From Chrysochromulina parva (Eukaryota; Haptophyta; Prymnesiales; Chrysochromulinaceae), in contig PJAB01000716.1 in NCBI GenBank assembly GCA_002887195.1, forward strand, positions 1 through 21,714: DNA of 21,714 nucleotides, written 5' to 3'. The first letter of the stretch is position 1. Each line of letters opens with the position of its first letter. Shown one piece after another: positions 3-19,830 of this stretch. The notes below the pieces were generated by a model. The model was given only the letters and a program-made list of their open reading frames with translations, was not told the origin of the DNA and ran no database searches. A program made the position numbers and the translations under genes.

Positions 3-3000
3 GAGGTTGACACGAAAGCAGCAGTAGCCGTTGAGCAAGCGCGGAAGGAGGCGAACGTGTGTAAGCAGCACCGCGCCGCTACGATCGCCGATACCGTCAA
101 GGCCCTGGTGAACGGAAGTTACAAAGATACCGACACGGCGCTCCGCAAACCGACAGAAAGCAAACCCATCGACTACAGAAAGTTTGCTCACCCCGCCGTC
201 GCGCAGACCCTCGAGAACATCGAACTTGGGCAGGCGACTAGATCGATCTCGGTCCGCATGGACGAGGTACCCATCGGCTCAAGTGAACCCAACAAACTCG
301 TCGCATCTGGATACACGCACATCGCCGAATTCGCTGCTTCGGGAAGGTCAACGTGCAAGACTTGTGGTGAGAAAATCGAACAAGGCCATCTGCGCATCGG
401 CACCTTTAAGCTGGGAAAGCCAAACGAATGGTGGCCAGAGTGGCGCCACGAGTCATGCCAGGGGCTGCTGCAGATTCACCAGACGCTCGGCGCCGATATT
501 GTCAAGCTGTTCATCCATGAGGACCTCCCGCTTACATCGCGGAAGGCCATCAGCGAGAGGTTCGCGACTGATGCGACATGTGGAGCGGCCAGCGGCGATG
601 CTGTCATGGGCGAGGCTGGTGGTGGAGGGCTGCAGCATTTGCAGTCGGCGAAGGCGCCCGCGCCGTCTGGCTCGGGCGATGGATCTCCTTCTGATCCTCC
701 ACGCAAGAAGCCGCGCGTGGCCGCCGACGGAGGGGACGATGGGGGCCCTCCGGCCCAGAAGGCAAAGACCGAGGCTGCCAAGCCTGCCGCAGGAAGCATG
801 GACGGAGGCGATGCAGCGCCGCAGCAGAAGAAGCAGCCGACCTTCCCACAGGTGCCACAGGTGCTGCGCCGCGTGGGCGCATCTCAGGACTCGCTCGTGG
901 TACAAGTCAAGTTGCCCGAGTTCCGCGGTGCCCGTGTGGGCAAGATCGAGGTCGAGGCTTGGGAAGTCGCTTCATGGCATCCTGAGGATGCAGCTCCCAC
1001 ATCGAAAGCCTGCTCGTCGGCTTCTGTCGATGTCGGCGACGACGGTGAAGGTTCGGTCACCTGCACCATTCCTAAGCTCGAGCTGAGCAAGTCGTACATT
1101 GTGCGGGCGAGGGCGCATAACGCCAACGGCTGGGGCCAGCGCTCGCATCCCAACTATATGCATCCTGATGCGCCCTGGCGGCTGAACGCGTTGGCCGCCT
1201 CAACTGAGGAGCTGATGCAGGCCTGTGAGGCGATCAAGGATAAAAAGCCCACAGATACGACCCGAGGGGCGCGACTCGAGTGCGTGCTTTGGCAATACAC
1301 CATTCCCCAGCTGAAGGTCCTGTGTGCAGACGTGGCAGAAAAGGTGTCTGGCTCAAAGCCCGAGCTCATCGACCGGCTCGTGGAACGTGGGAAACTGAAG
1401 GTCTCGAACCCGCCGCCTTCTGACCCTCCGGCCAAAAAAGGACCCGCCGCCCCTGCCGCACACGACCCCGGCATCGAATACGGGGTGCTCGCTGCGGACA
1501 TCGCGGCAGATAACATGGCAGCTCACATCGCGGCCGCCGTCGCCTCCGATGGATCTTCTTCTGATCCTCCACAAAAGAAGCCGCGTGTGGCCGCCGACGG
1601 AGGGGTCTATGGGGGCGCTCCCGGAGCGTTCGGCGGCGGCGGAAGCAGCGGCGGCGCTAGTGGTGGTGACGGTGGCGGCGGAGATGCTGGCGAGGGCGCT
1701 GGTGGCGGTGGCGGCGGAGAAGGTGGAGTTGGAGACGGTGGAGGTGGAGGCGGAGGCGGCGGAGGAGGAGGCGGAGGGGGTGAAGGAGGAGGCGGAGGAG
1801 GCGGAGGAGGCGAGGCCGCGCACGACGACGTGATCGAGCTTTCCAACCTGAAAGGGCCCTGGACGTACACGCACGGTGGCACTCTGGCACGCGTTAAGCA
1901 AAATGAATTCCGCCGTCTGGAGAAAGGCGTGCAGCTGACCGCCTCGGGCAAGGGCTTTTCGGCTGACTTTGCGAACGCACTCTTCTCTGATGTGAAAGAT
2001 GTCGTTGCACGCAAGAAAGAAATCGCCAACTGGCAGCAGGCCATGAACAAAAAGCTCAAGGATCCCAACCCCGCGGCATACAAGGGCGAGTGGCTGCTCA
2101 GGCTGAACGGATCGTCGGCGGCAATGATCGGTGCATCTTCGCTCAAGGCTTCGCAGCATGCGTTCCTCGACCACGCCAAGCACTTTCAGTTCGACGAGGT
2201 TCGGAAGCTCGTCGAGCGAGACAACGCGTACGTCAACTGCCAGCCTGATGGGCGTTGGACAGCGTTGCACCAGGCGTGCTTGAAGGGCGACGAGGACATG
2301 GTGCAGTTCCTCCTCGACAAAGGCGCGGACGTCAGCCTCAAAAATCCGGAAGGAGTGACGCCCAAGGAGGTTGCCAAGGCGGCCCTGAAAGACCAGACCA
2401 AGGAATCTCGCCATGGTGAGTACAGAGCGTGCGTGACGCGCCTCGATTTGAAGATCGTCGATGTGCGGTTGCGCGAGGCAGGCTGCTCGATGGACACGCT
2501 CCGCGCTGTGATAGACCTGGTGCTTTGCACGGAAGACCAGGAGGTGCTCGCGCCCAAGGATCTACGGCGATTGCTCGAGATGAACCTGGGGCTTGAATCG
2601 GGCGAACTCGAGGCGTTCAAGGAGGGCATCAAGGCCGAAATCAAGGCGTCCCACCATCGCGTGATGCCCTCAACGCCCGCCAGCGTCCTGCAGTTGGAAA
2701 CGGACCTCATCGAACTCCAGCTAGCGGAAGTAGACGATCAGCCCAACTGGTCTGCGGTGCTGTCCATGCTTATCAAGATGCACAAGTATATCGTCCGCGT
2801 GCCGATGCTGAAGCATGCACTCAAGCTCATGGATTATCTGAGCAAGAAGGGAAACGATCTCGCCAAACTGTCCCCCGACGACGACTCGTGGACCAAGGAA
2901 CAGAGAAACGCTCACAAGTGCGCTCGCCACCTGCACGCATTGTGGAAGAAACACTACAAGAAAGCGCCATCCAAGTGCGAGCGGCCAGAGCTCGTGGAGG

Positions 3001-6000
3001 CGACCGATGATGCGCTCATCCTCAGTCTCAAGTTGCCCAAAGCCGGCGAGACAGAGATCACTGCGATGGTCGTCACGTTCAAACCCACTGCCGCCCACGA
3101 GAGCCACAAACCCAAGGAGGAGGAAGTGACAGTGCCTCGGGAGCTCTGGCAAGGTAAAGCTGAGGGCACTGAGTTCAACTGGAGCCTCCGCCCGCTCAAC
3201 CCATCAACTTGCTACGAGGTCAGGGTGTACGCGTGCGGCACGGAGGACTGCTTGCAGAAGGGCTTCAAATCAGAAACGGTCAAGATGTCGACCCTCAGGT
3301 TGACGAGTGTGGAGGAGCTGAGGGATTTCAACACACAACTCGGCGCCCTGTGTAATGCTCAGCCCGTCAATGCGGATCAGCTGCTTGGTCTGCTGCGGCA
3401 AGTGTGGTGCTTGCACGCTACACTGCAGGAGCTCAAGGCATCCAGCTTCGTCTCCAACAATGCCAACCTACACAAGGCGGTGGCACTTGGCGGAGAGGCA
3501 GGTGAGATTGCGACTGAAATCCGCGATCGCTTCAAGAAGAAGTTCAAGAAGCCTCCTCAGATCCTCGCGCCCATCCTCGTCAATCAGGCTGCTACTCATC
3601 TCGACTTTGAGCTGATTGTACCTCGAAGCGAGGCGGTGATCTCATCACTCGAGTGGCGAATCAAAGTCAAGGAGACGCCCTGGCCTTCTGGTGCTGGTGA
3701 GTGGAAATCAATCAAGGAGCCTGATGGTGGTTGGCATTCAATCAACGAGATTCCATTCACGGCATCTGAACTGCAGCCCAAGACGATTTACGACGTGCAA
3801 GTGCGCGTCAGGAGCGACGAAGTCTTGAAGAACAGCGATGCCAAACTGCTCGAGGGCGTAACGACGCTGGCCCACCGCCCTTTGCTCTCGAGAGAAAAAT
3901 TTGATCGTGCTGTGAGCGACGTGAAAAGTCTTCTGGACCAGTGGTCATATCTGGATGAGTTTGATGTCTTCAGCGAGGCGAACAAAGAGAAGATCGATCG
4001 GGCTTTGACTTCGTTCGAAGGCCACACCGTCACCGTCCCCATGCTCAAGCAGAGCAGCGTGCGCAAGCATCTCAATAACCTGGTAAGCCGGCTGGACGTC
4101 GCAGATGATGTAGGCACGGACGCGACCTTTAAGAAAACTCTTGCTGAGCGCGTTAACAGCCTTCTAGAGTACTGGAACTCGACGATTAAGAGTCCACCGG
4201 GTGCGCCTACGCTACGCTGCTCGCCGGGCCGATTGATTATATCGGTGCCGGAAGCAAGCACAGTCATCACATCTTACGAGATGGAACTAACGCTCTCCTT
4301 TTCAGTCGGCCAACCAACACGCAAGCAGCAAGAGATCCCTCGGAGCATTTGGGAGGGGAAATCGAAGGCTGGCGAAGAGTTCGAATGGCCGCTTGAAGAT
4401 GCTTTCGTTGAGCAAAGTGACACCGTCAACGTCAGAGTGCGCGCTCTTGGTTCTGAGGAAGAAGGATGTTGGGACAAGCAAGGGTGCTGGTCGACGTCGG
4501 TGGAATGGAAGCCTATTCAGCCAACCAACTCTTTGCCCACGGAGGACGCTGACGAGCCGATGGGTCAGGTAGACGAGACTCCGATGGCAACTAAGGGCTG
4601 TGCTGATGCGTTCATCGAGATCGTGCGGCAGCTATTTGAGCTCGAGTCACCCCAGCAAGTGGAATGTCTCGACGAGTTAGAGGAGAAGCTTGCGGCGCTC
4701 GAAAGAATCGAGCTGGGAACGGTGAGGCTGCTCAAGCCTGCAACCGTTTCGTCCATCTGCAAAGGATTGCGGCGCTTCTGCAAGAGCTTCGACACCGCCG
4801 GTCTCGATTTAGAGCATTGTAGCAAGGTCAAGCGATTGCACGAGCGTGCTGAGTGCCTGGACTCGAAACTGCGACCGCTGGTAAAGCCTCCGCCTCAGAA
4901 GATCAAAGACGCACCCGTGCTTGTGCCTGACGGTGCCACTCAGACAAGCCTGACGCTGAGTGTGATCGTGCCAAATGCCGACACGCGCATCACGGCCTAC
5001 GAGGTGCAAGTGATCGCACAGTCAGCTGACCATAAGCTTCCCACTCGCTGGATCCCCGAGGAGGCCTGGAAGGACAAGGCGACGGGTAGTTCTTTTGAGT
5101 GGCTGGTCACTAGCTTGGAAGCTGGCACCACGTACGAAATCTCGGTCCGTGCCTATGGGACAGAGGAGGAGTGCGAGCAGCGCACAAAGCATTGGTCGCC
5201 CGCGTTGGTCAAACGCACGCTGCTGCCGGATGGGAACGCTGAGAAATCCGAGCCACAGGCTGAGCACTCCGATGAGGTCGAGCAGGCGTTGGAGGGTGAA
5301 GAAGTCGAGGAATTCTTCGCTGCCTTCTTCCCCGACAAAGCCAGAGACACGGCTGAAAACATGGAAGTTGAGGCTGGAAATGTGGTTCTTGCAGAAGGTG
5401 TGGCTGCTTCAGAAGATGTTGCCAAGGCCATCAACCACATCAGCAAATGGTTCAAAGCCGCAGCTATTCACGTGTTTGACGCGTACTGCAGAGACTTAGA
5501 TGACGCAGCTGCAGCGATGTGCAAGGCGGTTCGGCAGGCCATGCTCGTTCGCCCGGTGGCTGCGGAGGCGCTCGCGTCGTCAGTCGATCCCCAGGAGCTG
5601 GATGTTATGGAGCTTGCAATGCTCTATGCTGGGGCAGGCACGAAAAGGGTTGAGCTCTTTGAAAACTTCATGAGCAAAATCAATCTGCCCCCGGACTTCC
5701 CCCCTCTCAAGAAATGCGCCGAGGCTCTTCAGAAGATGGGGCCAGGTCTCATTACTGCAAATACTCCCATCGAGAATGTCTTCAAGTTAGTTCACGATCT
5801 CGACCAGCAGCAGCTCAGTCAACCGCTGAGCCAGAAGCTTGTCGACATGGCTCACGATGCGATTCAAGCAACAAGCAAAGGATCAAGCAACAAGCAGCAG
5901 GCAGCAGGCTTCAACCCAGCGCACTGCATCACGGTGGTTCAAAAAGCTCACAAGGTGCGCGACCAGCTCCGCAATAAGCTGGCAACGAGCTTCCCGAACC

Positions 6001-9000
6001 TCGACAAGTTCCAGAAGCGAGTGCTTCATGTTGCAGTCGAGCAGGCTGCGGCAGACATAGCCATCGCGGTGCCGCTTGATCCGGAGCCCGGCGACCAGAA
6101 CACTTGGCTCAAGCAGACCAGCGGCTGCCCGAGCGACTGGCTTGCTTATCAAGTGGTCAAGGCACAAGAGAAGGCATTGAATGAGATGAGCGAAGTAGAG
6201 AAGAAGGCTGAGCTCAAGGGTGATCACAAAGATAACCCACTCATGTCGCACGTCTTCAAGAACAGCGACCAAGATGCGATGAGCAAGGACCTACCGGAGG
6301 ACTCGGAAGCATTCGCGGTGGTGAAGCAAAAGCTTATTCTCTCGACCAAGGGTGCCGTCGTGCACGGCAAGCCGTGGAGCGAGCTGAGCACAACAAAATT
6401 TCGCCACGGGGACTGGGACGGCCGGAAGCCTGGCGTTAAAGGCTTCAACAAGTTCGCACAAGAGATGATGGAGCGTCACAACGTCCCAGCAACGAAGGTC
6501 GTCTCCGTGCCGCACGACGGCAAACCGTGCGTCCAGCCGTATCAACAAGTGGTAGCGTACCTGGCCCATCCCAAATCGTACACGCTCGACCAGAAGTGCG
6601 TCGATCCGAACACAGGGAGACAGAGCTGTACCAATCCATCTCAGAGAATGCTCGTGGTCCATCGCACGGGCGCAGGAAAGACGTGCAGCATGATCCGCGT
6701 CGCCGACAATTATTTCAAAGACAAGCGGCCCAAGATCCTGCTATTCCCATCGCCTGCTGTCTGCAGCAACTTCTACATGGAGCTGCTCAACCACCGCTTC
6801 CCGAACCGATACGCCGACTTTCTCCAGCGCGAAGGCAAGCTCGACGAAGTGCGCAGCAACCTTGAGCTCAAGAGAGGTGGCCTGATGTGCGGTCGCGTCC
6901 GCAAGGAATTCCTCGACGACGAACGGCGCCCATCGGCTCCGCTGCGTGCTTTCTCTTACACACAGGCTGGTGGTCGAATGACGTGCGGCGATCGGCACCG
7001 GATCAACCCGGTCTTCAAGTGCCCCGATGGCTACGGAGGCGGCTGGTGCTATGGCCCAGGGAACACGCGCAGCAGCGATGAAGATTTTTTTAATGACGGC
7101 TACGAAGAGTATGAGTCGGATGGCAACCCATTCAGCAATAAGATCATTCTCATGGACGAGTTCCATAACCTGGTCAAGCCCAGCCCCGAGATCCGTAAGA
7201 GCCCGACGCGCATGCTGATGCTTGGTATGCTCAAGGAGATGCTGCGGACGGCCAAGAACTCGGTGATCGTGGGCTTCACGGCGACACCTCTCGTTGGCGC
7301 CGATGGCACAGCCAAGGAGCTGCTCGATATCATCAAAGGCAAAGGCAGTGAGCACTTGACCGACGAAGGCTTCATCTCGTACTTCATGGGCTCGCCATTT
7401 CCCCTATTCCCAACTGTCAGCCCGCCCCCTAACGAGATCACCGAGAGTCTCCTCCGCAAGGTTCCGATCGAGAACCTTTCTGAAAGCCGCGGCAACCTCA
7501 CAGAGTACTACAAGCATCAGAGCGATGAGGACAAGGCGGTCCAGCGGTGTTCCCTCGGTCAGTACTTTGGAACAGCGGGGACATTGAAGATCTTCGAATT
7601 GCTTACGGGAGCCTCGGGTAAGCTGTGCGGCGAGGCTTTCGACAAAGAAGAGCCTCATAAAACCTTTGGATACTGCCCAGACCGCGTCCGTGGCTACGCC
7701 TCCAAGCTCTCAGCTGTCTGCGACGACGTGAGCGCGCACGCAGGCAAGACTCTTGTGCTTGTGCACTCGGCGCACGGCTTCAAGCTTCTCCTCCGCCTGC
7801 TTGGCGCACGCTTTCCGGGCGAGGTGCTTGGATACGTTGGCTGCACCCCATCGGCTATCGCCAAATGGGACGACGAAATCAAATCGCTGATTGGAGAAAA
7901 GCACAGCGATGCAGAGAAGGCCAAAGGCTGCTGCGGCTGCCACATTTGCAAATTCAATGCGCCAAAGAATCTGCAGGGTGAGGAGTATCGGATCATGGTC
8001 GCGGACGCCAAGTTCTGCAGCGAGGGCGTGTCCTTCTTAGCAGTGCGTCATCTCTCCCTCGTCGACATGCCTGATACTGCTTCCGAATTTTTGCAGCGCG
8101 TGGGGCGTGCGGTTCGCTTCAATGGCCACGCCGGTCTTCCGCCTAAGGAGAGCAACGTGCGCCTCCGCCTTTACTGCGCCACTCTTCCCGCCGAAACCGA
8201 CGACGAGGAGGCGGACGCGCCCAGCGTGACTAGCGAGCCGGAAGCGTCTGCCGATGAGAATCGGAAGAACACTTTGGCCGCGGAGCTCAAGGAGTACTAT
8301 GGGCATCTCGCGCAGCTCGAGTGGAATGCCGTCGACTTCGATCAGTCGAGCAAGAAGCCTCTGTGGGACGAATCGAGCAGCGAGGTCGATTTCGAACAGG
8401 CGAAGAAAGAGCTCGATGCGGAGCTTGCACTCGAGGTTGAGGCCATCAAGGCGAGCAAGGAGGAGGCCAAGGCCAAGGCCCAAGCCAAGGCGCAGGCCGA
8501 AATCGAAGAGAGCATCCAACCTATTCCCACTGTACAGACATTTGCAGACAGCCAATACAAGGTGCTCAGTGATAGGTTGTGGAAGCGGATGAGCCAGGAA
8601 GAGGGCAATGAGCCTATTCGCATCGAAGAGCTGTGGAAGAGCGCTAAATCCCTCGTCGCGCACTATGAGAAAAAAACGGTGGCCGAACGGTTCATCGAGG
8701 AACTGCAGAGAGATATCCGAGATCGGTGCCGCGAAAACGATTATGATGAAGATGATGTCAAGACGATTGCCGTACTTATGTGGGCGGCAAGCAAGTTTGG
8801 TGGCGTCCGGTCGGAGCTTTGCTCGCTGCTCAATCGTGCCATCCGGGAGGATAGTGTTTGCCCTGTGCTTGAGGATGCCGTGCTCCTTGCGCGTGCCATT
8901 AACTTGAATCTGGTGGCCTCGTATCTTGGGGAATCATCGACACGGTATGCGAACAAAACCAACTTCAAGGAGTGGCCCAACGGACCTTTGGTTGCTAAAC

Positions 9001-9458
9001 ACGGTGGCGGCTGGAGCTCGAATAAGAATACGACGTGGCGGGGTGGCGGCATGCCGCTGGCGGACCTGAAGTGGTACTTGGACCTGGAGAAGCACAGCAA
9101 AGCACAAAACCCAGATGCCAGAAAGTTTCGCACCAAGATGTTCGTCGCAACTTCGTTCAGCAAGAGTGTGGCCGACGAATTTTCGAGTCGAGCTTACAAT
9201 AAGCATGATCCGACTGGCACCGGCAAGGTGCTCTTCAGATTCAACTTTGAGGAGTACAATTGCCTCCACGTGAATTACCTCGACAAGAGTATGTACCCGC
9301 AGGAGAAGGAGTTTCTGCTTTCACCATACTCGGTACTCGAGCTTGTGGAAGTGAAGCAGAGTCACGATCTCGACCACAAGGCACACGTCATCACAGTCAA
9401 GGTCATGCCGGACAATCAGGCGGAATCGAATCGCCTCCCACTCGCCCCTCGAATTTGA
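3..9458 (+). CDS. Giant multidomain protein: PARP-type zinc finger, SAP, DEK_C-like, LW/FN3 modules, virus-like SF2 helicase and C-terminal ART domain (5' partial)
   Basis: The frame is open from base 3 to the TGA at 9456-9458 (3151 residues) with no intron. No start is visible: the codon at 57 is GTG (Val), so the gene begins upstream. Domains in order: PARP-type zinc finger; FN3; SAP; poly-Gly; ankyrin; DEK_C-like; four LW/FN3 pairs (about 2700-5215); unassigned helical region (5220-6500); SF2 helicase with Walker A 6660-6683, DEFH 7155-7166, GFTATP 7272-7289 and an arginine-finger motif 8094-8117; coiled coil (8397-8520); ART fold with R at 9039, TSFS 9150-9161 and EKE 9303-9311. Two basic KKPRV motifs suggest nuclear location. 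Inference: a nuclear DNA- or RNA-dependent ATPase coupled to NAD-dependent ADP-ribosylation. I know no named family with this architecture. Composition is less GC-rich than neighbouring genes. The helicase and ART calls are firm; the overall role is unknown. Confidence 0.9.
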   Translation, partial: EVDTKAAVAVEQARKEANVCKQHRAATIADTVKALVNGSYKDTDTALRKPTESKPIDYRKFAHPAVAQTLENIELGQATRSISVRMDEVPIGSSEPNKLVASGYTHIAEFAASGRSTCKTCGEKIEQGHLRIGTFKLGKPNEWWPEWRHESCQGLLQIHQTLGADIVKLFIHEDLPLTSRKAISERFATDATCGAASGDAVMGEAGGGGLQHLQSAKAPAPSGSGDGSPSDPPRKKPRVAADGGDDGGPPAQKAKTEAAKPAAGSMDGGDAAPQQKKQPTFPQVPQVLRRVGASQDSLVVQVKLPEFRGARVGKIEVEAWEVASWHPEDAAPTSKACSSASVDVGDDGEGSVTCTIPKLELSKSYIVRARAHNANGWGQRSHPNYMHPDAPWRLNALAASTEELMQACEAIKDKKPTDTTRGARLECVLWQYTIPQLKVLCADVAEKVSGSKPELIDRLVERGKLKVSNPPPSDPPAKKGPAAPAAHDPGIEYGVLAADIAADNMAAHIAAAVASDGSSSDPPQKKPRVAADGGVYGGAPGAFGGGGSSGGASGGDGGGGDAGEGAGGGGGGEGGVGDGGGGGGGGGGGGGGGEGGGGGGGGGEAAHDDVIELSNLKGPWTYTHGGTLARVKQNEFRRLEKGVQLTASGKGFSADFANALFSDVKDVVARKKEIANWQQAMNKKLKDPNPAAYKGEWLLRLNGSSAAMIGASSLKASQHAFLDHAKHFQFDEVRKLVERDNAYVNCQPDGRWTALHQACLKGDEDMVQFLLDKGADVSLKNPEGVTPKEVAKAALKDQTKESRHGEYRACVTRLDLKIVDVRLREAGCSMDTLRAVIDLVLCTEDQEVLAPKDLRRLLEMNLGLESGELEAFKEGIKAEIKASHHRVMPSTPASVLQLETDLIELQLAEVDDQPNWSAVLSMLIKMHKYIVRVPMLKHALKLMDYLSKKGNDLAKLSPDDDSWTKEQRNAHKCARHLHALWKKHYKKAPSKCERPELVEATDDALILSLKLPKAGETEITAMVVTFKPTAAHESHKPKEEEVTVPRELWQGKAEGTEFNWSLRPLNPSTCYEVRVYACGTEDCLQKGFKSETVKMSTLRLTSVEELRDFNTQLGALCNAQPVNADQLLGLLRQVWCLHATLQELKASSFVSNNANLHKAVALGGEAGEIATEIRDRFKKKFKKPPQILAPILVNQAATHLDFELIVPRSEAVISSLEWRIKVKETPWPSGAGEWKSIKEPDGGWHSINEIPFTASELQPKTIYDVQVRVRSDEVLKNSDAKLLEGVTTLAHRPLLSREKFDRAVSDVKSLLDQWSYLDEFDVFSEANKEKIDRALTSFEGHTVTVPMLKQSSVRKHLNNLVSRLDVADDVGTDATFKKTLAERVNSLLEYWNSTIKSPPGAPTLRCSPGRLIISVPEASTVITSYEMELTLSFSVGQPTRKQQEIPRSIWEGKSKAGEEFEWPLEDAFVEQSDTVNVRVRALGSEEEGCWDKQGCWSTSVEWKPIQPTNSLPTEDADEPMGQVDETPMATKGCADAFIEIVRQLFELESPQQVECLDELEEKLAALERIELGTVRLLKPATVSSICKGLRRFCKSFDTAGLDLEHCSKVKRLHERAECLDSKLRPLVKPPPQKIKDAPVLVPDGATQTSLTLSVIVPNADTRITAYEVQVIAQSADHKLPTRWIPEEAWKDKATGSSFEWLVTSLEAGTTYEISVRAYGTEEECEQRTKHWSPALVKRTLLPDGNAEKSEPQAEHSDEVEQALEGEEVEEFFAAFFPDKARDTAENMEVEAGNVVLAEGVAASEDVAKAINHISKWFKAAAIHVFDAYCRDLDDAAAAMCKAVRQAMLVRPVAAEALASSVDPQELDVMELAMLYAGAGTKRVELFENFMSKINLPPDFPPLKKCAEALQKMGPGLITANTPIENVFKLVHDLDQQQLSQPLSQKLVDMAHDAIQATSKGSSNKQQAAGFNPAHCITVVQKAHKVRDQLRNKLATSFPNLDKFQKRVLHVAVEQAAADIAIAVPLDPEPGDQNTWLKQTSGCPSDWLAYQVVKAQEKALNEMSEVEKKAELKGDHKDNPLMSHVFKNSDQDAMSKDLPEDSEAFAVVKQKLILSTKGAVVHGKPWSELSTTKFRHGDWDGRKPGVKGFNKFAQEMMERHNVPATKVVSVPHDGKPCVQPYQQVVAYLAHPKSYTLDQKCVDPNTGRQSCTNPSQRMLVVHRTGAGKTCSMIRVADNYFKDKRPKILLFPSPAVCSNFYMELLNHRFPNRYADFLQREGKLDEVRSNLELKRGGLMCGRVRKEFLDDERRPSAPLRAFSYTQAGGRMTCGDRHRINPVFKCPDGYGGGWCYGPGNTRSSDEDFFNDGYEEYESDGNPFSNKIILMDEFHNLVKPSPEIRKSPTRMLMLGMLKEMLRTAKNSVIVGFTATPLVGADGTAKELLDIIKGKGSEHLTDEGFISYFMGSPFPLFPTVSPPPNEITESLLRKVPIENLSESRGNLTEYYKHQSDEDKAVQRCSLGQYFGTAGTLKIFELLTGASGKLCGEAFDKEEPHKTFGYCPDRVRGYASKLSAVCDDVSAHAGKTLVLVHSAHGFKLLLRLLGARFPGEVLGYVGCTPSAIAKWDDEIKSLIGEKHSDAEKAKGCCGCHICKFNAPKNLQGEEYRIMVADAKFCSEGVSFLAVRHLSLVDMPDTASEFLQRVGRAVRFNGHAGLPPKESNVRLRLYCATLPAETDDEEADAPSVTSEPEASADENRKNTLAAELKEYYGHLAQLEWNAVDFDQSSKKPLWDESSSEVDFEQAKKELDAELALEVEAIKASKEEAKAKAQAKAQAEIEESIQPIPTVQTFADSQYKVLSDRLWKRMSQEEGNEPIRIEELWKSAKSLVAHYEKKTVAERFIEELQRDIRDRCRENDYDEDDVKTIAVLMWAASKFGGVRSELCSLLNRAIREDSVCPVLEDAVLLARAINLNLVASYLGESSTRYANKTNFKEWPNGPLVAKHGGGWSSNKNTTWRGGGMPLADLKWYLDLEKHSKAQNPDARKFRTKMFVATSFSKSVADEFSSRAYNKHDPTGTGKVLFRFNFEEYNCLHVNYLDKSMYPQEKEFLLSPYSVLELVEVKQSHDLDHKAHVITVKVMPDNQAESNRLPLAPRI
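327..480 (+). other. PARP-type zinc finger domain in the giant protein
   Basis: Zinc ligands are Cys at 354 and 363, His at 447 and Cys at 456, giving C-x2-C-x27-H-x2-C. This is close to the CCHC spacing of PARP1-type fingers (C-x2-C-x28-30-H-x2-C). The stretch before the spacer reads IEQGHLRIG and the second half has WRHESC, both resembling the family. In PARP1 and DNA ligase 3 such fingers bind DNA breaks and nicks, so recognition of damaged or unusual DNA ends is a reasonable inference here. Confidence 0.8.
678..746 (+). repeat. In-frame direct repeat, copy 1, encoding a KKPRV basic motif
   Basis: This 69-base segment is repeated at 1548-1616 with few differences, exactly 870 bases (290 codons) downstream and in the same frame. 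It encodes a Ser-Asp-Pro-Pro stretch followed by KKPRVAADGG. The basic core resembles a monopartite nuclear localisation signal. The near identity at DNA level indicates a recent duplication or gene conversion. Confidence 0.85.
855..1410 (+). other. FN3-like domain followed by a SAP DNA-binding motif
   Basis: At 855-1167 a beta-sandwich pattern ends in SKSYIVRARAHNANGWG, typical of the late strands of a fibronectin type III domain. At about 1297-1404 the sequence YTIPQLKVLCADV, then GSKPELIDRL, matches the two-helix SAP motif, which binds AT-rich or scaffold-attached DNA in chromatin proteins. SAP next to a PARP-type finger also occurs in some plant PARPs. That comparison is from family knowledge and not from an alignment. 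Confidence 0.7.
1548..1616 (+). repeat. In-frame direct repeat, copy 2, encoding a KKPRV basic motif
   Basis: Second copy of the segment at 678-746. It differs mainly at silent or conservative positions (Arg to Gln before KKPRV) and leads directly into the poly-glycine tract. Together the copies flank the first FN3 domain and the SAP motif. Confidence 0.85.
1618..1815 (+). repeat. GGN triplet tract encoding a poly-glycine linker
   Basis: About 200 bases of nearly pure GGN/GAN triplets encode a glycine-rich, slightly acidic linker that follows the second basic motif and precedes the folded central part. The tract is prone to replication slippage, so its length probably varies between strains. 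The long reverse-strand proline-rich frames across it are shadows of this composition. Confidence 0.9.
2140..2655 (+). other. Ankyrin repeats followed by a DEK_C-like domain
   Basis: At about 2140-2390 there are two ankyrin-type repeats. The clearest contains WTALHQACLKGDEDMVQFLL followed by DKGADV. At about 2490-2652 a helical segment with a KDLRRLLEMNLGL core and a closing FKEGIKAEI matches the pattern of the DEK C-terminal domain, a small DNA-binding fold also found in chromatin proteins. Ankyrin identification is firm. The DEK_C call rests on the pattern of hydrophobic residues and the RRxLE core and needs a profile search. Confidence 0.6.
2697..5215 (+). other. Four alternating TFIIS N-terminal (LW)-like helical domains and FN3 domains
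   Basis: Helical segments lie at about 2697-2965, 3303-3555, 3894-4187 and 4590-4880. Each is followed by an FN3-like beta domain at about 2980-3298, 3558-3876, 4197-4520 and 4905-5215. The helical segments share a core like VTVPMLKQSSVRKHLNNL (third copy), VRVPMLKHALKLMDYL (first) and VRLLKPATVSSICKGL (fourth). This resembles the LW domain of TFIIS and related transcription elongation factors. The FN3 domains share endings such as AGTTYEISVRAYGTEEE. The second LW copy is the weakest. Such modules normally mediate protein-protein contact. Confidence 0.6.
6540..8200 (+). other. Superfamily 2 helicase core resembling NCLDV D6/D11-type helicases
   Basis: Motif I is HRTGAGKTCSMI (from 6660), motif II MDEFHNL (DExH, 7155-7166), motif III GFTATP (7272-7289) and motif VI FLQRVGRAVRFNGH (from about 8088). 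A GRAxR motif followed by a histidine, and an IxMDEFHNL-type motif II, are features I associate with the D6/D11-like helicases of nucleocytoplasmic large DNA viruses more than with cellular DEAD-box or SNF2 proteins. Between the lobes sits an extra cysteine cluster at about 7927-7950 (CCGCHIC), possibly metal-binding. All catalytic residues appear intact. Confidence 0.8.
8820..9455 (+). other. C-terminal ADP-ribosyltransferase fold, R-S-E type
   Basis: A helical lead with LLNRAIRED is followed by TTWRGGG (Arg at 9039), then VATSFSKSVADEF (STS-like motif, 9150-9161), then QEKEFLLSPYSVLELVEV (ExE at 9303-9311). This is the R-S-E signature of the arginine-specific or ecto-ART class of mono-ADP-ribosyltransferases. 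It is not the H-Y-E triad of classical PARPs. Expected activity is transfer of ADP-ribose from NAD to arginine or possibly to nucleic acid. The substrate is unknown. The motifs are complete, so the domain is probably active. Confidence 0.75.
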
Positions 9459-9894: not shown

Positions 9895-12800
9895 TCACGC
9901 CGCTCGCTCCTCGTCGACGTGTGACGTCCGCTCCTCCGCGTCGTGCACGCTCGCGAGAATCTCGGCGGCCTCGCCGAGGCCGAGCCGGAAGACGCCGTAC
10001 TCCTCCAGGCGGCGGCGCAGCGCAGCCTCGTGCTCGTGGCGGCCCTGCATCTGGCTGGGCGTCTCAGCCAGGATGGCCTCCACGAGCGCCAAGCGCGTCG
10101 GCCGAGGGAGCGCGAGCAGCTGGCAGCTCTCGTGCAGTCGGCGGAGGGCCGCTTGCGGGCGCACTGCGAGTGGCACAAAGAGCGCGGCGAGCGCACTCAC
10201 GTCGCGGAGCAGCTGGCGCGCGCCCGCCGCCGAGAAGGCCCCCCGGCGCACGAGCTGGGTGTACAGCAGCGTGTCGACCGCGGTGGCGATGGGCGGCCAG
10301 ACGCGCCGTAGGGAAGCGGGCGGCAGCGCGGCGCGCAGGCCACTCAGCTCAGCGTGGAGCCTAGCGAGCGGCTCGCAGAGCGAAGGGGACAGATCAAGCA
10401 GCTCGAGCGCCGCGCTGCCGCTGCCATCGGCACCGGCGTCGCTCCCGCCGCCGCTGCTCCCGCCGTCGTAGGCTGTCGGGAGCAGCAGGCGGAAGTCACG
10501 CACACTCGCCTCGGTGAGGTAGGGGCGGCATGCGCTCACAAAGCCCGCTGTGACGGTCTCAACGACAAGCGCCTCACACTCGGCAAGCAGTGCAGCCCAT
10601 GCCTGTAAGAGTGGTGAGAGCGGCCCCGCCGCCGCCGTCGACGCGCCCTCTGTTCCCACGTCGGCCGTTGCGCTCGCGAGCGAGGCCGCAGCGCTCGCGG
10701 CGCCGGCGCGCGCCGTAGTGGTCAGCTTGTCCGCCGCCGAGCGTGCGAGGGCAGCCACGAAGGACGAGGGCGTGTGAATGTGAACGAAGGACGAGGGCGT
10801 GCAAGCCGTGCTGCCGCCGCGGCCGCCAGCCGCCGGCGACGCCAGCACTGCCGCCGCCGATGGCGCGGCGGCGGCGGGCGCCGTGGCGGGCGCGGACGGC
10901 CCTCGGAGACTCGCGACTGGCGAGGGCGGCTCCATACTCGCGGCTGAGGCGTTGGAGGCCGCTCCAGCATCGGAGCTGCCCGTGCTAGCACCGGCGGCAG
11001 CGCTGTCCTTGGCGCCCTTGTGGACGAGGGCAGCAAGCGGCGGCAATTCGTGCCAGTCATGTAGCAGGGGCGACGCATACGTGACGATGTGGGCGAGGGC
11101 GCCCACCTGCCCCCAGCTACCCACCTCCCGTGAGCCCACTCGGCACAGCTCGAGCCTCGTGTGCATCTTGGCGCCAAAGAGCTCGAGGAGCGGCACGAGC
11201 ACCTTGTGCACGAACGCGCGCTGTGCGGGCTCGTCTGAGAGGAGCCGCAGGCGCTCAAGAAGCTTCTCGCAGTGTCGCATCACCACGACCGCACACGCCG
11301 GAGGGACAGTGCGCGCACCGCCCAAGCTACACCCGTCGGCCAGTCCGCCGCACGCTAGCCGGCCGGCGGCCGCGGCCTGGCCACTGCTGGCCACACGGCC
11401 GTCGCCCATGGACGCGTGCGGCCCTTCGGGTGGCGCGTCGGCGGCGCCGCCCACGCCGCCCGCCCCGCCGGCAAAGGGGTCGGCGGCGGTGGGTGGTGGG
11501 CCCGCGCGCCAGCTGCCTTCGTCTGCAGTGGCGCGCTCAAGCATAGCGCGCCCGTCCTCGCCCTCGATGCGCAGCCAGAGGTGCAGCGCCGCGGGCTCGG
11601 CTGTGAAAGCCGGCAGCGCACCGCCCACCCCAAGGGGCAGCCCGAACCCGTCACGCAGCTCGCGGTCGAAGGCGGCCGCCTCGTTGAGAGCGTGGCAGAA
11701 GAGGCGAGCGTGCTGCCGCAGCGCGGGCTGCTCGCGTCGCAACTTGCTCCGGATGGCGCCGCAGATCGCGCCCGCGACGGCGCCGAAGATGCTGTGCGGG
11801 CATCGCTCGCGCAGCATCGCGCTGTAAGCCTCCGCCTCCGCGCGCGCCATCTCGGGCGGCGCGAGCGCACCATGGAGCCACGGCAGCGGCGCGAGGAGCA
11901 CTGGCGGGAGCGTCTCTTGCAGCAGTGGCGTGTGCAGGCGCAGCAGGCTCGCGCAGTGCGTGAACATCCACTCGGGCTTGTCCCTTCGGTTCGTCTCGCG
12001 CCGCCCCTCGAAGTGGTATCGGAACCGGCGCAATACCGGCGTGACCAGCGCCTCAACTGCCCACAGGCCGCCGCGGTCGCCGTCGCCGTCGCCGTCGCCG
12101 CCTCGGCCGCTGCTGCCGCCGCTGCTGCCGCGGCCGCCGCTGCCGCTGCCGCTGCCGCCCGCAGCGATGGGATCGGGGCCGCGTGCCTCGCAGCAGTGCT
12201 GGAGCAGCAGCAGCTCGCCGAGCGCGGCGCGCACCTCGCCAAGGGCGGCCGAGTCCGGGCCGACGATCGTCTTCTGGAGCTCTGCTGGCCAGCCGAGGTT
12301 GCTCAGTGCCTTGGCCGCGCGCTGTCCAAAGGCGTCGCGCAGCGGCGGCTCGAGCGCACGCATGCGGGCGTCGAGGTGCTTGACCAGTGACGCGATCGCC
12401 GCGGCCGCCGCGGGAGCGTCATCGGTGGCGGATGCCGCCGCATCGTCAGAGGTTTCGACAGAGGTTGACAACAAGTTGGCCGCCATGCGCACGCTTGTGC
12501 GAAGCGCATGCAGCTGCAGCAGCGCCTGCATCGCGGGCGACTGGGCACCAAGGGGCACGGATGATGTCGTCGCCGACTGAGAGGATGGCTTCGTCTCCGC
12601 GTGGCGCTGCGTGCGCTCCACCTGCTCGACCAGCTTGTTGGCTGTCGCGAGGGTGTGGAGCACGAGCTGCGCCTCGCGCAGCCGGCGCAGCCGCGCGCGC
12701 GGCGGGCCCAAGCGGCTGGCGAGCTGCGTCGCCACGTCCAGATGCGTCTTGACCGTCTCCTCGAAGCGCGCGCGCTCCGCATCGAGTGCGCCCAGACGGA

Positions 12801-12996
12801 TGAGCGCCGCTCCCGCTTGTTCGCTAGCCTGTGAGAGCGCCGTGGGCAGGGCGGCCTCGGCAGCGGCCAGCTGCTCCTCGAGCGCCGCCACCTGACGCGT
12901 GAGGTCGCGCGCAAGCGGCTCCGCGCGGGACAGACTGGCAAGGTCGTCGAAGCAGGCGAGGAGCGTGGAGGGCCCGGAGCTTATAGACGGCGACAT
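9895..12996 (-). CDS. RINT1: RINT1/TIP20-family vesicle-tethering protein (Dsl1/NRZ complex subunit)
   Basis: A single uninterrupted frame of 1033 residues runs from the ATG at 12996 to a stop at 9895. Residues 325-343 carry FRYHFEGRR, then ETNRRDKPEW, the best-conserved block of the RINT1/TIP20 family. The N-terminal 130 residues have a heptad-like, Ala/Leu/Glu-rich coiled coil (EEQLAAAEAAL), as expected. Family members (human RINT1, yeast Tip20, plant MAG2) act with ZW10 and NAG/Dsl1 homologues to tether Golgi-derived vesicles to the ER. Human RINT1 also binds RAD50. The protein is longer than the roughly 700-800 residues usual for the family because of low-complexity Gly/Ser/Asp (about 12064-12170) and Ala/Ser/Pro (about 10740-11010) insertions. 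It diverges from the methyltransferase gene, 153 bases away. Confidence 0.82.
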   Translation of the reverse strand: MSPSISSGPSTLLACFDDLASLSRAEPLARDLTRQVAALEEQLAAAEAALPTALSQASEQAGAALIRLGALDAERARFEETVKTHLDVATQLASRLGPPRARLRRLREAQLVLHTLATANKLVEQVERTQRHAETKPSSQSATTSSVPLGAQSPAMQALLQLHALRTSVRMAANLLSTSVETSDDAAASATDDAPAAAAAIASLVKHLDARMRALEPPLRDAFGQRAAKALSNLGWPAELQKTIVGPDSAALGEVRAALGELLLLQHCCEARGPDPIAAGGSGSGSGGRGSSGGSSGRGGDGDGDGDRGGLWAVEALVTPVLRRFRYHFEGRRETNRRDKPEWMFTHCASLLRLHTPLLQETLPPVLLAPLPWLHGALAPPEMARAEAEAYSAMLRERCPHSIFGAVAGAICGAIRSKLRREQPALRQHARLFCHALNEAAAFDRELRDGFGLPLGVGGALPAFTAEPAALHLWLRIEGEDGRAMLERATADEGSWRAGPPPTAADPFAGGAGGVGGAADAPPEGPHASMGDGRVASSGQAAAAGRLACGGLADGCSLGGARTVPPACAVVVMRHCEKLLERLRLLSDEPAQRAFVHKVLVPLLELFGAKMHTRLELCRVGSREVGSWGQVGALAHIVTYASPLLHDWHELPPLAALVHKGAKDSAAAGASTGSSDAGAASNASAASMEPPSPVASLRGPSAPATAPAAAAPSAAAVLASPAAGGRGGSTACTPSSFVHIHTPSSFVAALARSAADKLTTTARAGAASAAASLASATADVGTEGASTAAAGPLSPLLQAWAALLAECEALVVETVTAGFVSACRPYLTEASVRDFRLLLPTAYDGGSSGGGSDAGADGSGSAALELLDLSPSLCEPLARLHAELSGLRAALPPASLRRVWPPIATAVDTLLYTQLVRRGAFSAAGARQLLRDVSALAALFVPLAVRPQAALRRLHESCQLLALPRPTRLALVEAILAETPSQMQGRHEHEAALRRRLEEYGVFRLGLGEAAEILASVHDAEERTSHVDEERAA
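10757..10801. repeat. 18-base direct repeat inside RINT1
   Basis: ACGAAGGACGAGGGCGTG occurs at 10757-10774 and again at 10784-10801, a period of 27 bases (nine codons). On the reverse strand it encodes a duplicated TPSSFV in the low-complexity insertion, so it is a short in-frame duplication in a poorly conserved part of the protein. Confidence 0.9.
12076..12099. repeat. GTCGCC hexanucleotide microsatellite inside RINT1
   Basis: Four perfect GTCGCC units encode an alternating Asp-Gly run on the reverse strand, within the larger Gly/Ser/Asp-rich insertion of the RINT1 homologue. The tract length is a multiple of three, so unit changes keep the frame. Confidence 0.9.
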
Positions 12997-13149
12997 GACG
13001 CAGAGCGCGCCGCTAGTTGCACCGTTCCATTATGCTACGTCAAACGTAAAACTCTACGAGAGGATGTGGATGTCGATTCAAGGAAATGCCTGACGACATT
13101 CGCCCTTCGATATGCGACTCGCTGGTTTCGCGCCCATCTGCATCGGGCA
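12997..13149. promoter_or_regulatory. Divergent promoter region between RINT1 and the DNA methyltransferase
   Basis: Only 153 bases separate the RINT1 ATG (reverse) from the first methyltransferase ATG (forward), so both promoters must share this interval or extend into the coding regions. No clear TATA box is visible. On the forward strand an ATG at 13064 opens a nine-codon upstream frame and another at 13086 opens a long out-of-frame one. Methyltransferase translation therefore needs either a start site downstream of 13086 or leaky scanning. Confidence 0.5.
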
Positions 13150-14967
13150 ATGATGGTCGGGAGCGACGGCAGCCTATTTCCCACGACTGCGGCCGTGGCA
13201 GTTGCTGTCGCGCCGGCTGCGGCCGTGCCAGTCGCTGGCGCTCAGTCTACGGCCGTACCGTGTCTGCCGCTGCAGTCGCCGTCGCAGCCCGTGGTCACTT
13301 CCACTTTGACGTCTGTCGCCTCCCGACCACAACGTGCCTCAGCCCTGCCACCCGGAAGCTGGTGCAACCTGACGTGGCAGGGTTACTCGGCCATCGCGGC
13401 CTACTCGCGGATCGGCCAGGCGAATGGGACGCAGCATCCGCCGCCGCTTGTGGACGCGCAGCCTGTGTACGTCAACGCCTACCCTGCTGCATCCATGTCG
13501 GCAGCGGCATCCAGCCAGCTGGGCACCAAGCAGCCGGCGGCCAAGGCGCAGCGCTTTCCGAAGCGCGTGCACAAGCAGCCCTCGCAGCCGCAGATGCCGT
13601 TTGTGCGCCCGACCATCTACTCGACCGAGAACCCCGCGCCAGATGTGAACGAGGCCCACCTCTCGATCACGCATGGCGACTGCGTCGAGGGCATGAAGCT
13701 GCTCGCAAACGCGTCCGTGGACCTGGTGATCGCGGACCCTCCGTACGATATCGGCGTGGGCAAGGCGGTGTGGGACACCGTGCCGCACTATATGCAGTGG
13801 TCGCGCACATGGCTTGCCGAGGCGGTGCGTGTGCTCAAGCCAGGCGGCGCCCTGATGCTCTACGGCTCGCCAGAGCGGCTGTGGATCTGCCATCTGAAGA
13901 TCATGTGCGCGGACGAGTTTGGGCTCGAGTTCAAGCAGCACATCAGCTGGGTGTACAAGCAGGGCGGCGACTCGCGCATGAACAATATGGTCAAGTACGC
14001 GGTGCGCATGGAGCATCTCGAATGGTTCGTCAAGCCGGGCGCCGGGCACACGTTCAACCTGGACGCGGGCACCGAGGCCTACTCGGAGGCGGAGTTCAAG
14101 GAGGCGCTCGCCAAGGGCGTCGGGCGGGTCACGGCCGAATCGCTCTCGCGCGGCAAGCCGCCCAAGAACTGGTGGGACATCCCGCGCGAGAACTCGCGCT
14201 CCAAGGAGCGCGAGTATGGTTCGCACCCCTCGATGAAGCCGCTGCGCATCTGCGACCGCATCGTTGGTATCCACTCGAACGTGGGAGACACCGTGCTCGT
14301 GCCCTTTGGCGGGAGCGGCTCCGAGTGCGTGGCCGTTGGCGCCGCTGGGCGCAAGCTCGTCGCGTACGAGCAGGAGGCCGAGTACCATCAGATCATTGTT
14401 CGCCGAATGAAGGGGTGGGGACTGCTCTCAGGGCCGCCCACGCCGCCGCCGCTCGAGCCGAGTGCTGCCGCGGCAGGCGAGACGAAGGAGAGCGAGGCGG
14501 AGGAGAGCGAGGAACTCTCGCGCGCGGCTAGGCTGCTGCCTCCGACGCTGCCGATACCGCCGCCGACGGGCGCGCTGGCCGTGGCTCTCCTGGCCATTGG
14601 AGGCGCGGCTGCGATTGGGCCGCCAGCGCCTCCAGTGTCGCCCGGCCCATCGGCCTTTCCGGCGCAGCCCTTGGCGCAGCCACCGTCGGCAGTACCGGCG
14701 CACTCGCTCGCGGCGGGGTCCATACTCGCCGCCCTAACAGCCACTCAGCCGCAGCCGTTACTTCTCTCCTCGCACAAACGGCCGAGGCCGGATGAACCGC
14801 TCGGGACAGCGCTTCGACTCGGGCTACCAGTCGTGATGGCGGGCGGCTTAGCTAGCCCCATGCATGTGGCCCTGCCGCTCGCGACACCGCTCGTGACGCT
14901 CGCGCCACCCGGGCCACCCGGGCCACCCGCGCCCGGTGATCCCTCGGACCGCATGCATCTCTATTGA
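13150..14967 (+). CDS. Beta-class DNA amino-methyltransferase (N6-adenine or N4-cytosine), bacterial type
   Basis: 605 residues from the first ATG (13150); the frame is open upstream but reaches only a GTG (13066). The catalytic motif IV is DPPY (13735-13746, residue 196), followed by LMLYGSPERL, a variable target-recognition region, KNWWDIPREN, HPSMKP (14224-14241, motif X) and FGGSG (14305-14319, the SAM-binding motif I). The order IV-X-I defines the beta class of restriction-modification and phage DNA methyltransferases, which methylate the exocyclic amino group of adenine or cytosine. The core (residues 175-425) is flanked by an Ala/Pro/Val-rich N-terminus, possibly an organelle transit or disordered region, and a long Pro/Ala-rich tail, both eukaryotic in style. 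No endonuclease gene is adjacent. It probably derives from horizontal transfer. Which base is methylated cannot be told from sequence alone. Confidence 0.88.
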   Translation: MMVGSDGSLFPTTAAVAVAVAPAAAVPVAGAQSTAVPCLPLQSPSQPVVTSTLTSVASRPQRASALPPGSWCNLTWQGYSAIAAYSRIGQANGTQHPPPLVDAQPVYVNAYPAASMSAAASSQLGTKQPAAKAQRFPKRVHKQPSQPQMPFVRPTIYSTENPAPDVNEAHLSITHGDCVEGMKLLANASVDLVIADPPYDIGVGKAVWDTVPHYMQWSRTWLAEAVRVLKPGGALMLYGSPERLWICHLKIMCADEFGLEFKQHISWVYKQGGDSRMNNMVKYAVRMEHLEWFVKPGAGHTFNLDAGTEAYSEAEFKEALAKGVGRVTAESLSRGKPPKNWWDIPRENSRSKEREYGSHPSMKPLRICDRIVGIHSNVGDTVLVPFGGSGSECVAVGAAGRKLVAYEQEAEYHQIIVRRMKGWGLLSGPPTPPPLEPSAAAAGETKESEAEESEELSRAARLLPPTLPIPPPTGALAVALLAIGGAAAIGPPAPPVSPGPSAFPAQPLAQPPSAVPAHSLAAGSILAALTATQPQPLLLSSHKRPRPDEPLGTALRLGLPVVMAGGLASPMHVALPLATPLVTLAPPGPPGPPAPGDPSDRMHLY

Positions 14968-17782: not shown

Positions 17783-19306
17783 CTATCTTAGAGCGAAGCC
17801 TTGTGCCGCGCCTGCTACGTTGCTCGGCGTCAATGGCGCCGCCGGATTTCCAGGCGACGGCAGCGTGCCTCGCGGCGACAGGCTCGCCGCCGCGCCGGCT
17901 GCCCGCACTGGTGACACCACTGGCGGCTGCGAGCCCGCAAAAGCGGCCCGGCATCCCTCGTACTCGTCCACGATCGTCTGCATGTACTCGGCGCGCTCCG
18001 CGATGAACTCGGTGCTCACGCCATGCCGCTCGAAGTGGTGCACGTATGCCTTGCCGAGCAGCTGCAGCCTCGCGCGGATTAGGATCTGCTCGAGCTGCGG
18101 GCCGGCGCTACTTCGGTTGCTCACGAGCGTCAGGGAGCGCAGCGCGTTCTGCGAGGGCAGCGCGGTCGCCGGAGAGGCCGACAGCTTGTAGTCGACCGGG
18201 AATGGCGAGCACGGCGAGCCGCCGAGCAGCTGCAGGAGCCTGTGCTTGATGCGCTCATCCGGTGGCTCTCCCGCGACGCCACGCCCGATGACCTGTGAGG
18301 CGAGTGAGAGGACCGGACGGTCCAGCAGGTCGTACCGGCTAGTGCGACTCACGAGGTCGCCTACGAGCGTCTCCCACGGCGCCGGCCGCCCCGCGCCGCT
18401 TCCGAGCCGCGAAATGGACGCGACGGCGCCGACGCCACCGACGCCAGAGCCGCCGCTGCCGCCCGAGGCGCCGGCGCTGCCAGCAGCGGCCGGTATCATC
18501 GGCGCGGGCGCTGTCTGGAGCGTGAGGCATTTGAGAGACGGCATCGGGCACACGCTGGTCACCAGATCGGCCGCGTCAAAGGGGCGGCGGCCCAAGGGAC
18601 CATCGGTGGGGAACGTGAGGCCGGCGAGGCCGCTCCCGACATACGCATCCAGATGCTTCATGTCGAGTCGCGCGGGCTGCTGCGACGAGTGCGATGCCGC
18701 GTGCGACTGAACGGCTGCGCTGCTCGTCAGGTGGCGCAGCAGCTGCGTGTTGTCGAAGAGGATGATCGCATCGGCAAACTCCTGAAGGAAGGAGAGCGCG
18801 AGCGTCGCGTTGTAGTGGCCAAGCGGCAGCTCGCCCGCGGCAAAGGGGCACATGGCCGCCGCAGTGAGGTAGTGTCGTGGATGCTCGTCGCGCAGCTCCT
18901 GGAGCAGCAGTGAGCCTAGGCCCGATCCCGTGCCACCCCCAATGGAATGGCTCAGCACAACGCCCGTGCACCAATCGCACCGCTCCCACTGCCAGCGCAG
19001 CGCCTCCAGCGCCGCGTCCGCGATGCCGTTGCGCCCTCCGCCATCCACACCGCCGTAGCCCATTGCCCAGTTGTTGCCACGCCCGCTCTGCTCGACGAGT
19101 GCGCAGCGCGGATGGACGCGCTCAGGTCCCAGGCTGCGCACCACGCCGCGCACAACCTTGGGCTCGGTGTCAACAAAGACGGCACGTGCTGTGCCACGCT
19201 CGTCAAAGAACCAGCGCCGAGGCGGCTTCTCGGCCCACGCGAGCCGCCACACTACGCCACCGATCTCGTTGCCTGCCTGGCCGCAGTGGACGAAGATGGT
19301 CGACAT
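17783..19306 (-). CDS. TUBD1: Delta-type tubulin
   Basis: 507 residues from the ATG at 19306 to a stop at 17783, with no intron. The start is fixed by homology: MSTIFVHCGQAGNEIG is the canonical tubulin first strand and nucleotide-binding loop. Other landmarks are VDTEPKVVRGV, SGRGNNWAMGYGG, the GTP-binding signature GGGTGSGLG (residues 123-131, about 18921-18940) and a C-terminal KAYVHHFERHGVS. GRGNNWA and the KAYxHxxxxxG end resemble delta-tubulin more than alpha, beta or gamma. Zeta-tubulin is the main alternative. Delta-tubulin is needed for triplet microtubules in centrioles and basal bodies, so the cell should build flagella. It is longer than human TUBD1 (about 450 residues) owing to a Gly/Ser-rich insertion and a Pro/Ala-rich tail of about 50 residues. 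Confidence 0.85.
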   Translation of the reverse strand: MSTIFVHCGQAGNEIGGVVWRLAWAEKPPRRWFFDERGTARAVFVDTEPKVVRGVVRSLGPERVHPRCALVEQSGRGNNWAMGYGGVDGGGRNGIADAALEALRWQWERCDWCTGVVLSHSIGGGTGSGLGSLLLQELRDEHPRHYLTAAAMCPFAAGELPLGHYNATLALSFLQEFADAIILFDNTQLLRHLTSSAAVQSHAASHSSQQPARLDMKHLDAYVGSGLAGLTFPTDGPLGRRPFDAADLVTSVCPMPSLKCLTLQTAPAPMIPAAAGSAGASGGSGGSGVGGVGAVASISRLGSGAGRPAPWETLVGDLVSRTSRYDLLDRPVLSLASQVIGRGVAGEPPDERIKHRLLQLLGGSPCSPFPVDYKLSASPATALPSQNALRSLTLVSNRSSAGPQLEQILIRARLQLLGKAYVHHFERHGVSTEFIAERAEYMQTIVDEYEGCRAAFAGSQPPVVSPVRAAGAAASLSPRGTLPSPGNPAAPLTPSNVAGAAQGFALR

Positions 19307-19438
19307 CAATAGTCCTAGGTGCGACCCGCAAGTACCCTCGCGATGCGCTCCGGCGTCCGGCGCTTCGCGGCGCGTGAGCAAAGGGCTCCTCTCGCCCGAC
19401 CCGAAACGGTGACAAATACGGTGTGAAAAGGGGCGCGC

Positions 19439-19618
19439 GTGCGCGACAGCACCGTCTACGGAGGGTCGAGCACGAGCGCCAAGTCGTCCTTCGAACACCA
19501 CACGCAGCAGCTCGCAGCGGCTGTACAGGTGGACGACGCGATGGGGACCTGGAAGAAGATCACTGACATGAAGATGCGCCTTATTCAGGACGCGCTTAAG
19601 GCGACCGGGCGGGGCTAA
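19439..19618 (+). pseudogene. Orphan coding-like fragment, possible gene remnant or terminal exon
   Basis: A forward frame reads through about 59 codons to a TAA at 19616-19618 with strongly GC-biased third positions and a plausible amphipathic end (TWKKITDMKMRLIQDALKA). It has no ATG until codon 35 and a stop lies just upstream at 19424. Only about 130 bases separate it from the tubulin start, leaving no room for earlier exons. It could be the 3' end of a truncated gene left by a rearrangement. I recognise no family, and chance is not excluded. Confidence 0.35.
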
Positions 19619-19830
19619 GGCGGCCCGGCCCGGCGGCTGATCGAGTATGGCTGTGGTAAGGGGGTCCAGGGGTCCCCGAGCTAGTGGTAACCGCATCTGT
19701 ATGTACGCCGGTCCGGTGTCTTGGGTGCCGAATTAAACCATTGGCTGTGAAAAGTCAAGACAAGTGTGTTCCGTTCACAATGAATTCACACCACACGTTC
19801 AAACTCACGCGTCTCCCCCGTTCAATGACA

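Follow-up and report, generated by a model that had tools for sequence, protein, structure and literature searches.

PARPs (ARTD) use an H-Y-E catalytic triad, and in PARP1-type members an N-terminal-side PARP finger is combined with a C-terminal ADP-ribosyltransferase (ART) fold. NPH-I and VETFS are poxvirus proteins of a helicase type that acts as a DNA-dependent ATPase working with RNA polymerase, and NPH-I has its role in transcription. In the Legionella SidE family (SidE, SdeA, SdeB and SdeC) a phosphodiesterase (PDE)-fold domain is followed by an ART on the same chain. The catalytic residues of that ART are R-S-ExE according to one account (PMC11696984), and the same account and a second (PMC11668277, PMC11696984) present SidE-type ubiquitin transfer, which needs no E1-E2-E3 cascade, as a bacterial effector reaction. 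Here we describe a gene of the haptophyte alga Chrysochromulina parva, on contig PJAB01000716.1, in which relatives of these systems are joined in one chain. Every part of this fusion chain appears to derive from a known family, and it is the combination that seems to be new. A literature search returned no account of such a fusion protein among the matches listed, in agreement with an earlier reading of the letters by a model (the sequence-only reading), which knew of no protein family with this arrangement.

A single frame joins a helicase to an ADP-ribosyltransferase

The gene lies in a 21,714-nucleotide stretch of DNA (the window), which is the entire contig (C716) in a genome assembly of 45 Mb and 2199 contigs. 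It is a single open frame at 3..9458 on the forward strand, with 3151 stop-free codons, an open 5' end that runs off the contig start and, at that contig edge, a missing N-terminus. The longest open run in 200 mononucleotide shuffles, read in three frames, averaged 170 codons and reached at most 272. The second codon position is the GC minimum in 20 of the 21 windows of 150 codons along the frame, the sole exception (codons 451-600) being a Gly-rich part. One long frame with a PARP-type finger, a SAP module, a helicase and an ART was what the sequence-only reading had proposed, and these features are all present; its list of domains had overlooked fn3 domains, ankyrin repeats, the Gly-rich stretch and a SidE-type PDE.

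We interpret the protein as a haptophyte DNA-guided, ATP-driven mono-ADP-ribosyltransferase, a reading in which we have roughly even confidence. It would act in the nucleus and sense DNA. Docking on DNA would fall to the PARP finger, the SAP motif and the DEK_C-like helices, whilst fn3 and helical modules would space the domains and bring in partners. By translocating, the NPH-I-type helicase would set where or when the chain acts, the C-terminal R-S-ExE ART would then use NAD+ to ADP-ribosylate an arginine-type target, and the SidE-type PDE relative ahead of the motor may bind or process ubiquitin or the ADP-ribosylated product. The role may be in genome surveillance or repair. In such a chain a nucleic-acid motor and ADP-ribosylation are brought together, and this in a lineage that has its own giant viruses.

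The ART, which has a helical N-lobe, spans 8490..9455 on the forward strand (residues 2830-3151). Its signature follows in order, with R at 9039-9041 (TWRG, 3011), S at 9153-9155 (TSFS, 3050) and E-x-E at 9303-9311 (EKE, 3101). In an alignment of 36 rows the R is found in all 36, and the S and the E-x-E in 35 each. The Pfam family PF01129 scores 19.7 bits and does not reach its curated cut-off of 22.3, yet profile, AlphaFold2 model and fold comparison all back the ART fold, so that the R-S-E ART recognized earlier holds. From its signature and modelled fold the domain looks intact, and it is predicted to be active. It resembles the ARTC-type arginine mono-ARTs ART2.2 and Vis in fold and in the R-S-ExE signature, but differs from them in having a sequence under the Pfam cut-off and in being joined to a helicase. 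With PARP1-type PARPs the chain has in common a PARP finger on the N-terminal side and an ART fold at the C-terminus. However, the PARP-type H-Y-E triad is replaced by R-S-ExE, the chain has neither a PARP catalytic nor a WGR Pfam match, and a helicase occupies its middle. Matches of the ART model in BFVD include phage and giant-virus ARTs at low TM-scores, which we take to reflect a common fold, claiming no closer kinship. The same ART type occurs in P0024 (506 aa, metagenome) on one chain with an IIGP interferon-inducible-GTPase-like match (E 2e-10).

The superfamily 2 (SF2) helicase core lies at 6432..8189 on the forward strand (residues 2144-2729), with the motifs HRTGAGKT (6660-6683), DEFH (7155-7166), TATP (7278-7289) and QRVGRAVR (8094-8117). 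In Pfam, ResIII is over its cut-off and Helicase_C under it (20.0 versus 23.5). When solved sequences were searched with a profile built from four relatives, just two came in at E <= 0.01, NPH-I as the closest (E 7e-16) and then VETFS (E 3e-4). The likeness to these proteins is limited to the C-terminal helicase half, and the fusion helicase differs in being part of a cellular gene that encodes sizeable additional domains. The virus-like SF2 helicase of the sequence-only reading thus stands as to its motifs and its closest solved relative, although none of the viral contigs scanned was confirmed to carry it. Viral contigs were scanned with alignments (ART, helicase and wider helicase) as well as with P0075 and P0081, and no viral relative of the fusion was confirmed; we set a viral origin aside, with the qualification that the patterns were few and short and do not prove absence. 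A prokaryote origin of the helicase was likewise rejected (535 pattern matches in genome contigs, none confirmed), and a tblastn search of residues 2100-3100 against phages gave no match. The relatives include helicases of roughly 500-850 aa at ~30% identity (part of P0051 onwards), which may be viral or algal.

A second helicase is encoded in the same genome on a 19 kb contig (C884, 4253-9457, reverse strand), where a 1734-aa frame matches CW finger and ResIII but not the ART. Its C-terminus appears DnaJ-like, both by eye and from its relative P0004, which adds FHA domains. At the far end of this contig (2-1384, forward strand) is an ART frame without a helicase; the N-terminus of its relative P0007 is hydrophobic.

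Recurrence of the helicase-ART join

We compared 89 proteins, all of which were picked by similarity to parts of the fusion chain, so that the counts given here are no estimate of frequency. Both the helicase and the ART profile are matched by 12 of them: the fusion chain itself (P0001), P0003, P0015, P0032, P0033, P0039, P0041, P0042, P0045, P0046, P0048 and P0074. One fused relative comes from a metagenome-assembled genome of Prymnesium, and the Prymnesium proteins among the relatives are P0003 and P0036. Because these 12 proteins carry both domains, the join is not an accident of assembly, and chance or misassembly at this point is ruled out by the 11 proteins other than the fusion chain. 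The ART tree has 36 rows and includes 11 of the 12 fused proteins; P0042 and P0027 were left out, their matched stretch being too short. The 11 fused proteins fall together with five short models in a single clade (support 99/98). Owing to the short models inside this clade, the label 'fused' requires four changes on the tree. Judged by eye, four of these models (P0011-P0014) open with a stretch resembling the linker between helicase and ART; they probably represent genes split in prediction.

The SidE-type phosphodiesterase-like domain

A diverged SidE-type PDE domain precedes the helicase at 5442..5969 on the forward strand (residues ~1814-1989). This piece of the fusion chain matches no Pfam family over cut-off; the cut-off of the SidE PDE family, PF12252, is passed by the relatives P0059 (94 bits), P0034 and P0087. 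P0059 is recovered at E 6.8e-10 by a profile made from the PDE regions of the fusion chain and P0002 (0.71 for the best shuffle), and at E 0.035 by the region of the fusion chain alone (0.36 for the best shuffle). Fold comparison of a model of the region ranks Legionella SidE-family and lpg1496 structures top. These profile matches show the PDE-like part to be homologous to the SidE PDE. P0053 and P0064 match the PDE-region profile over 21-24 residues; these stretches fall where the helicase begins and were disregarded.

Two histidines of P0059, which may correspond to the active-site pair of SdeA, are treated differently in the fusion chain, where H6 is aligned with an alanine and H125 with a histidine. 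Among the six aligned rows only P0059 has both. To judge by these residues, the domain of the fusion chain is more likely to serve as a scaffold for binding than to be catalytically active, and even as a mere scaffold it would belong to a novel means of bringing a mono-ART to DNA.

Like the SidE family, the fusion protein carries on one chain a domain of probable PDE fold and, behind it, an R-S-ExE ART. It differs in the helicase of ~590 residues between the two parts, in the divergence of its PDE, which is without one of the two P0059 histidines, and in its additional finger, SAP, fn3 and ankyrin parts. No Pfam match to a deubiquitinase such as that of SidE was found in the chain, the N-terminus of which is missing. 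The order of domains invites a reading as a eukaryotic SidE-like ubiquitin machine, in which the ART would modify ubiquitin or a target, the PDE would make the phosphoribosyl link and the helicase would pick the sites. We regard this as decidedly unlikely. With an alanine in place of one histidine the PDE may be inactive, and the helicase keeps the PDE-like and ART domains apart. Moreover, in fold comparison the Z-score of the ART to the SidE mono-ART is lower than that to Vis or ART2.2, and P0059 stops inside the helicase, so that a two-histidine PDE and an ART are not seen in one chain.

A bolder form of the idea, to which we give a still smaller chance, is a haptophyte SidE-like system that carries PDE and ART on a DNA or RNA motor and adds ADP-ribose or phosphoribosyl-ubiquitin at damaged or foreign nucleic acid. 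It would belong to a family into which effectors are swapped, with a sister bearing TIR and DNA-glycosylating domains. If this were true, protist proteins might have been the source of bacterial SidE-type enzymes, or the reverse, and there is an outside chance that this would be the first cellular SidE-like system. With an algal PDE relative, an intact-looking ART and an NPH-I-type motor in hand, eukaryotic use of SidE-type chemistry becomes testable.

One relative, P0086 (454 aa, metagenome), has a queuine tRNA-ribosyltransferase domain joined to the PDE-like region and helicase start. Where its helicase part matches the fusion chain (18% of the query), the identity is 98%; P0086 may be a genuine variant or a chimera created in assembly.

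The N-terminal and central modules

The PARP-type CCHC zinc finger (PF00645) lies at 327..467 (residues 109-155; this and all features of this section are on the forward strand). It exceeds the cut-off of 39.3 bits both in the whole chain (39.5) and as a piece (45.1), and all four ligands are in place (Cys118 and Cys121 in CKTC at 118, His149 and Cys152 in HESC at 149). At least 12 matches to such fingers occur in the genome, of which at least 10 are over cut-off, that of the fusion chain among them. The SAP motif (PF02037) at 1299..1385 (residues 433-461) likewise passes its cut-off of 23.9 bits, both in the whole chain (24.0) and as an isolated piece (29.8). The finger and SAP module of the sequence-only reading are thereby borne out, whereas its DEK_C-like module, helices at 2490..2645, remains weak, PF08766 scoring 15.8 bits against a cut-off of 24.8. 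Also in this part are an fn3-like domain at 870..1151 (residues 290-383; 21.5 bits, not reaching the cut-off of 25), the Gly-rich low-complexity stretch at 1620..1832 and ankyrin repeats at 2172..2363 (residues 724-787). We took an N-terminal match to PYC_OADA, at 18.4 bits against a cut-off of 27, to be due to chance.

The centre of the chain contains four fn3-type domains (2979-3278, 3567-3872, 4197-4505 and 4908-5207, spanning 2979..5207; residues 993-1735). Pfam gives three fn3 stretches, and the four domains were delimited with a profile built from those stretches; the same profile recovers four domains in P0002 and part of them in P0003. Between the fn3 domains are helical modules (2655-2972, 3270-3557, 3855-4202 and 4545-4898, spanning 2655..4898). 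In profile comparison these weakly resemble MED26 (E 0.011) and Elongin A (E 0.087), amid unrelated matches, and the four inter-fn3 pieces have no TFIIS-N/MED26-type Pfam match; our interpretation does not build on this likeness.

These modules bear on a further possibility, that the protein is an ordinary nuclear factor for repair or transcription-coupled functions which ADP-ribosylates chromatin proteins, a parallel to PARP1 built on a different ART. The PARP finger and SAP motif are what such a factor would carry, and the role of NPH-I in transcription, the resemblance of the inter-fn3 modules to MED26 and Elongin A, and the CW and FHA domains of related helicase proteins, domains linked to chromatin and damage signalling, point the same way. 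However, the MED26 likeness is weak and mixed with unrelated matches, and the ART is R-S-E, not the H-Y-E of PARPs. We consider this possibility somewhat unlikely.

Residues 1 to ~790 are reached by no relative found with the helicase-ART half, the ART or the helicase as query, and the alignment of the fusion chain to P0002 starts at residue 794. The sequence-only reading had suggested a search for the same domain order elsewhere; the helicase-ART join recurs, but the finger-SAP-ankyrin part is in no relative found with these queries. The opening 120 bases of the contig (1..120, forward strand) recur without change at the start of contig C493, and over 162 bases the two are 97% identical. Both contigs begin at the same base, and the common end is probably a fork in the assembly, which would place the true N-terminus of the chain upstream.

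The proposal of a DNA-guided mono-ART is weakened by the placement of the finger-SAP-ankyrin part in the same gene as the ART, which is read from this contig alone, and by the doubtful PDE catalysis, one of the two P0059 histidines being absent. The N-terminal third might even come from another gene, joined by misassembly or by an open unspliced intron. That no relative found covers residues 1 to ~790, P0002 aligning only from 794, and that the contig begins in sequence common to C493 would fit such an artefact. Nevertheless, one frame is open through 9453 bases with the codon-position bias in 20 of 21 windows, P0002 covers and so backs the fn3-PDE-helicase part, and P0003 does the same for the helicase-ART part with fn3 in front. 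We therefore think an artefact highly improbable.

The sister locus C493

Beyond the common 5' end, residues 270-382 of the fusion chain, an fn3 stretch, are 69% identical to C493. That contig (1-20000) then has matches to TIR_2 (E 3e-12), DEK_C (weak), fn3, PDZ, a GREB1-type permuted SF2 helicase and a TAGT glycosyltransferase, with a CHAT-domain match in a further frame. The locus is broken into several frames, and the matches may not form one gene. The GREB1/TAGT proteins of C493 are, like the fusion frame, modular with a helicase-type domain, and have the 5' sequence and fn3 stretch in common with it; they differ in combining a circularly permuted helicase with a glycosyltransferase, where the fusion has an NPH-I-type helicase and an ART. 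At least 17 TIR_2 matches occur in the genome.

This locus invites a reading of the fusion chain as an antiviral innate-immune effector whose modular family would retain its N-terminal part and exchange its effectors, ART here and TIR elsewhere. The 120 common bases and the 69% identical fn3 stretch, next to TIR_2, the GREB1-type helicase, TAGT and CHAT, would fit this, as would the IIGP GTPase match of the ART relative P0024; NAD+/ADP-ribose enzymes, moreover, figure in virus-host conflict in one account (PMC9503650). Set against this, the 120 bases are perhaps a mere assembly fork and the frames of C493 are broken. TIR_2 is common in the genome, so that a single TIR neighbour says little, and architecture alone cannot separate immunity from repair. 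We judge this effector family unlikely. What speaks for the self-contained antiviral factor of the sequence-only reading is circumstantial, namely the TIR and glycosyltransferase matches of C493 and the IIGP match of P0024, although an antiviral role is plausible. The fusion chain would suit a part in repair or transcription control as well as one in antiviral defence.

Neighbouring genes

The other frames in the window include ordinary eukaryotic neighbours: a RINT1/TIP1 frame (9895-12996, reverse strand), a tubulin/FtsZ-type GTPase frame (17783-19696, reverse strand) and a frame like the replication protein A large subunit (20233-21714, forward strand). A further frame adjoining the fusion (13066-14967, forward strand) has an N6/N4 DNA methylase domain (PF01555, E 1.6e-36). 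It matches 543 phage records, every one of them at less than 60% identity, and DNA methylation in this alga by a bacterial-type enzyme is possible.
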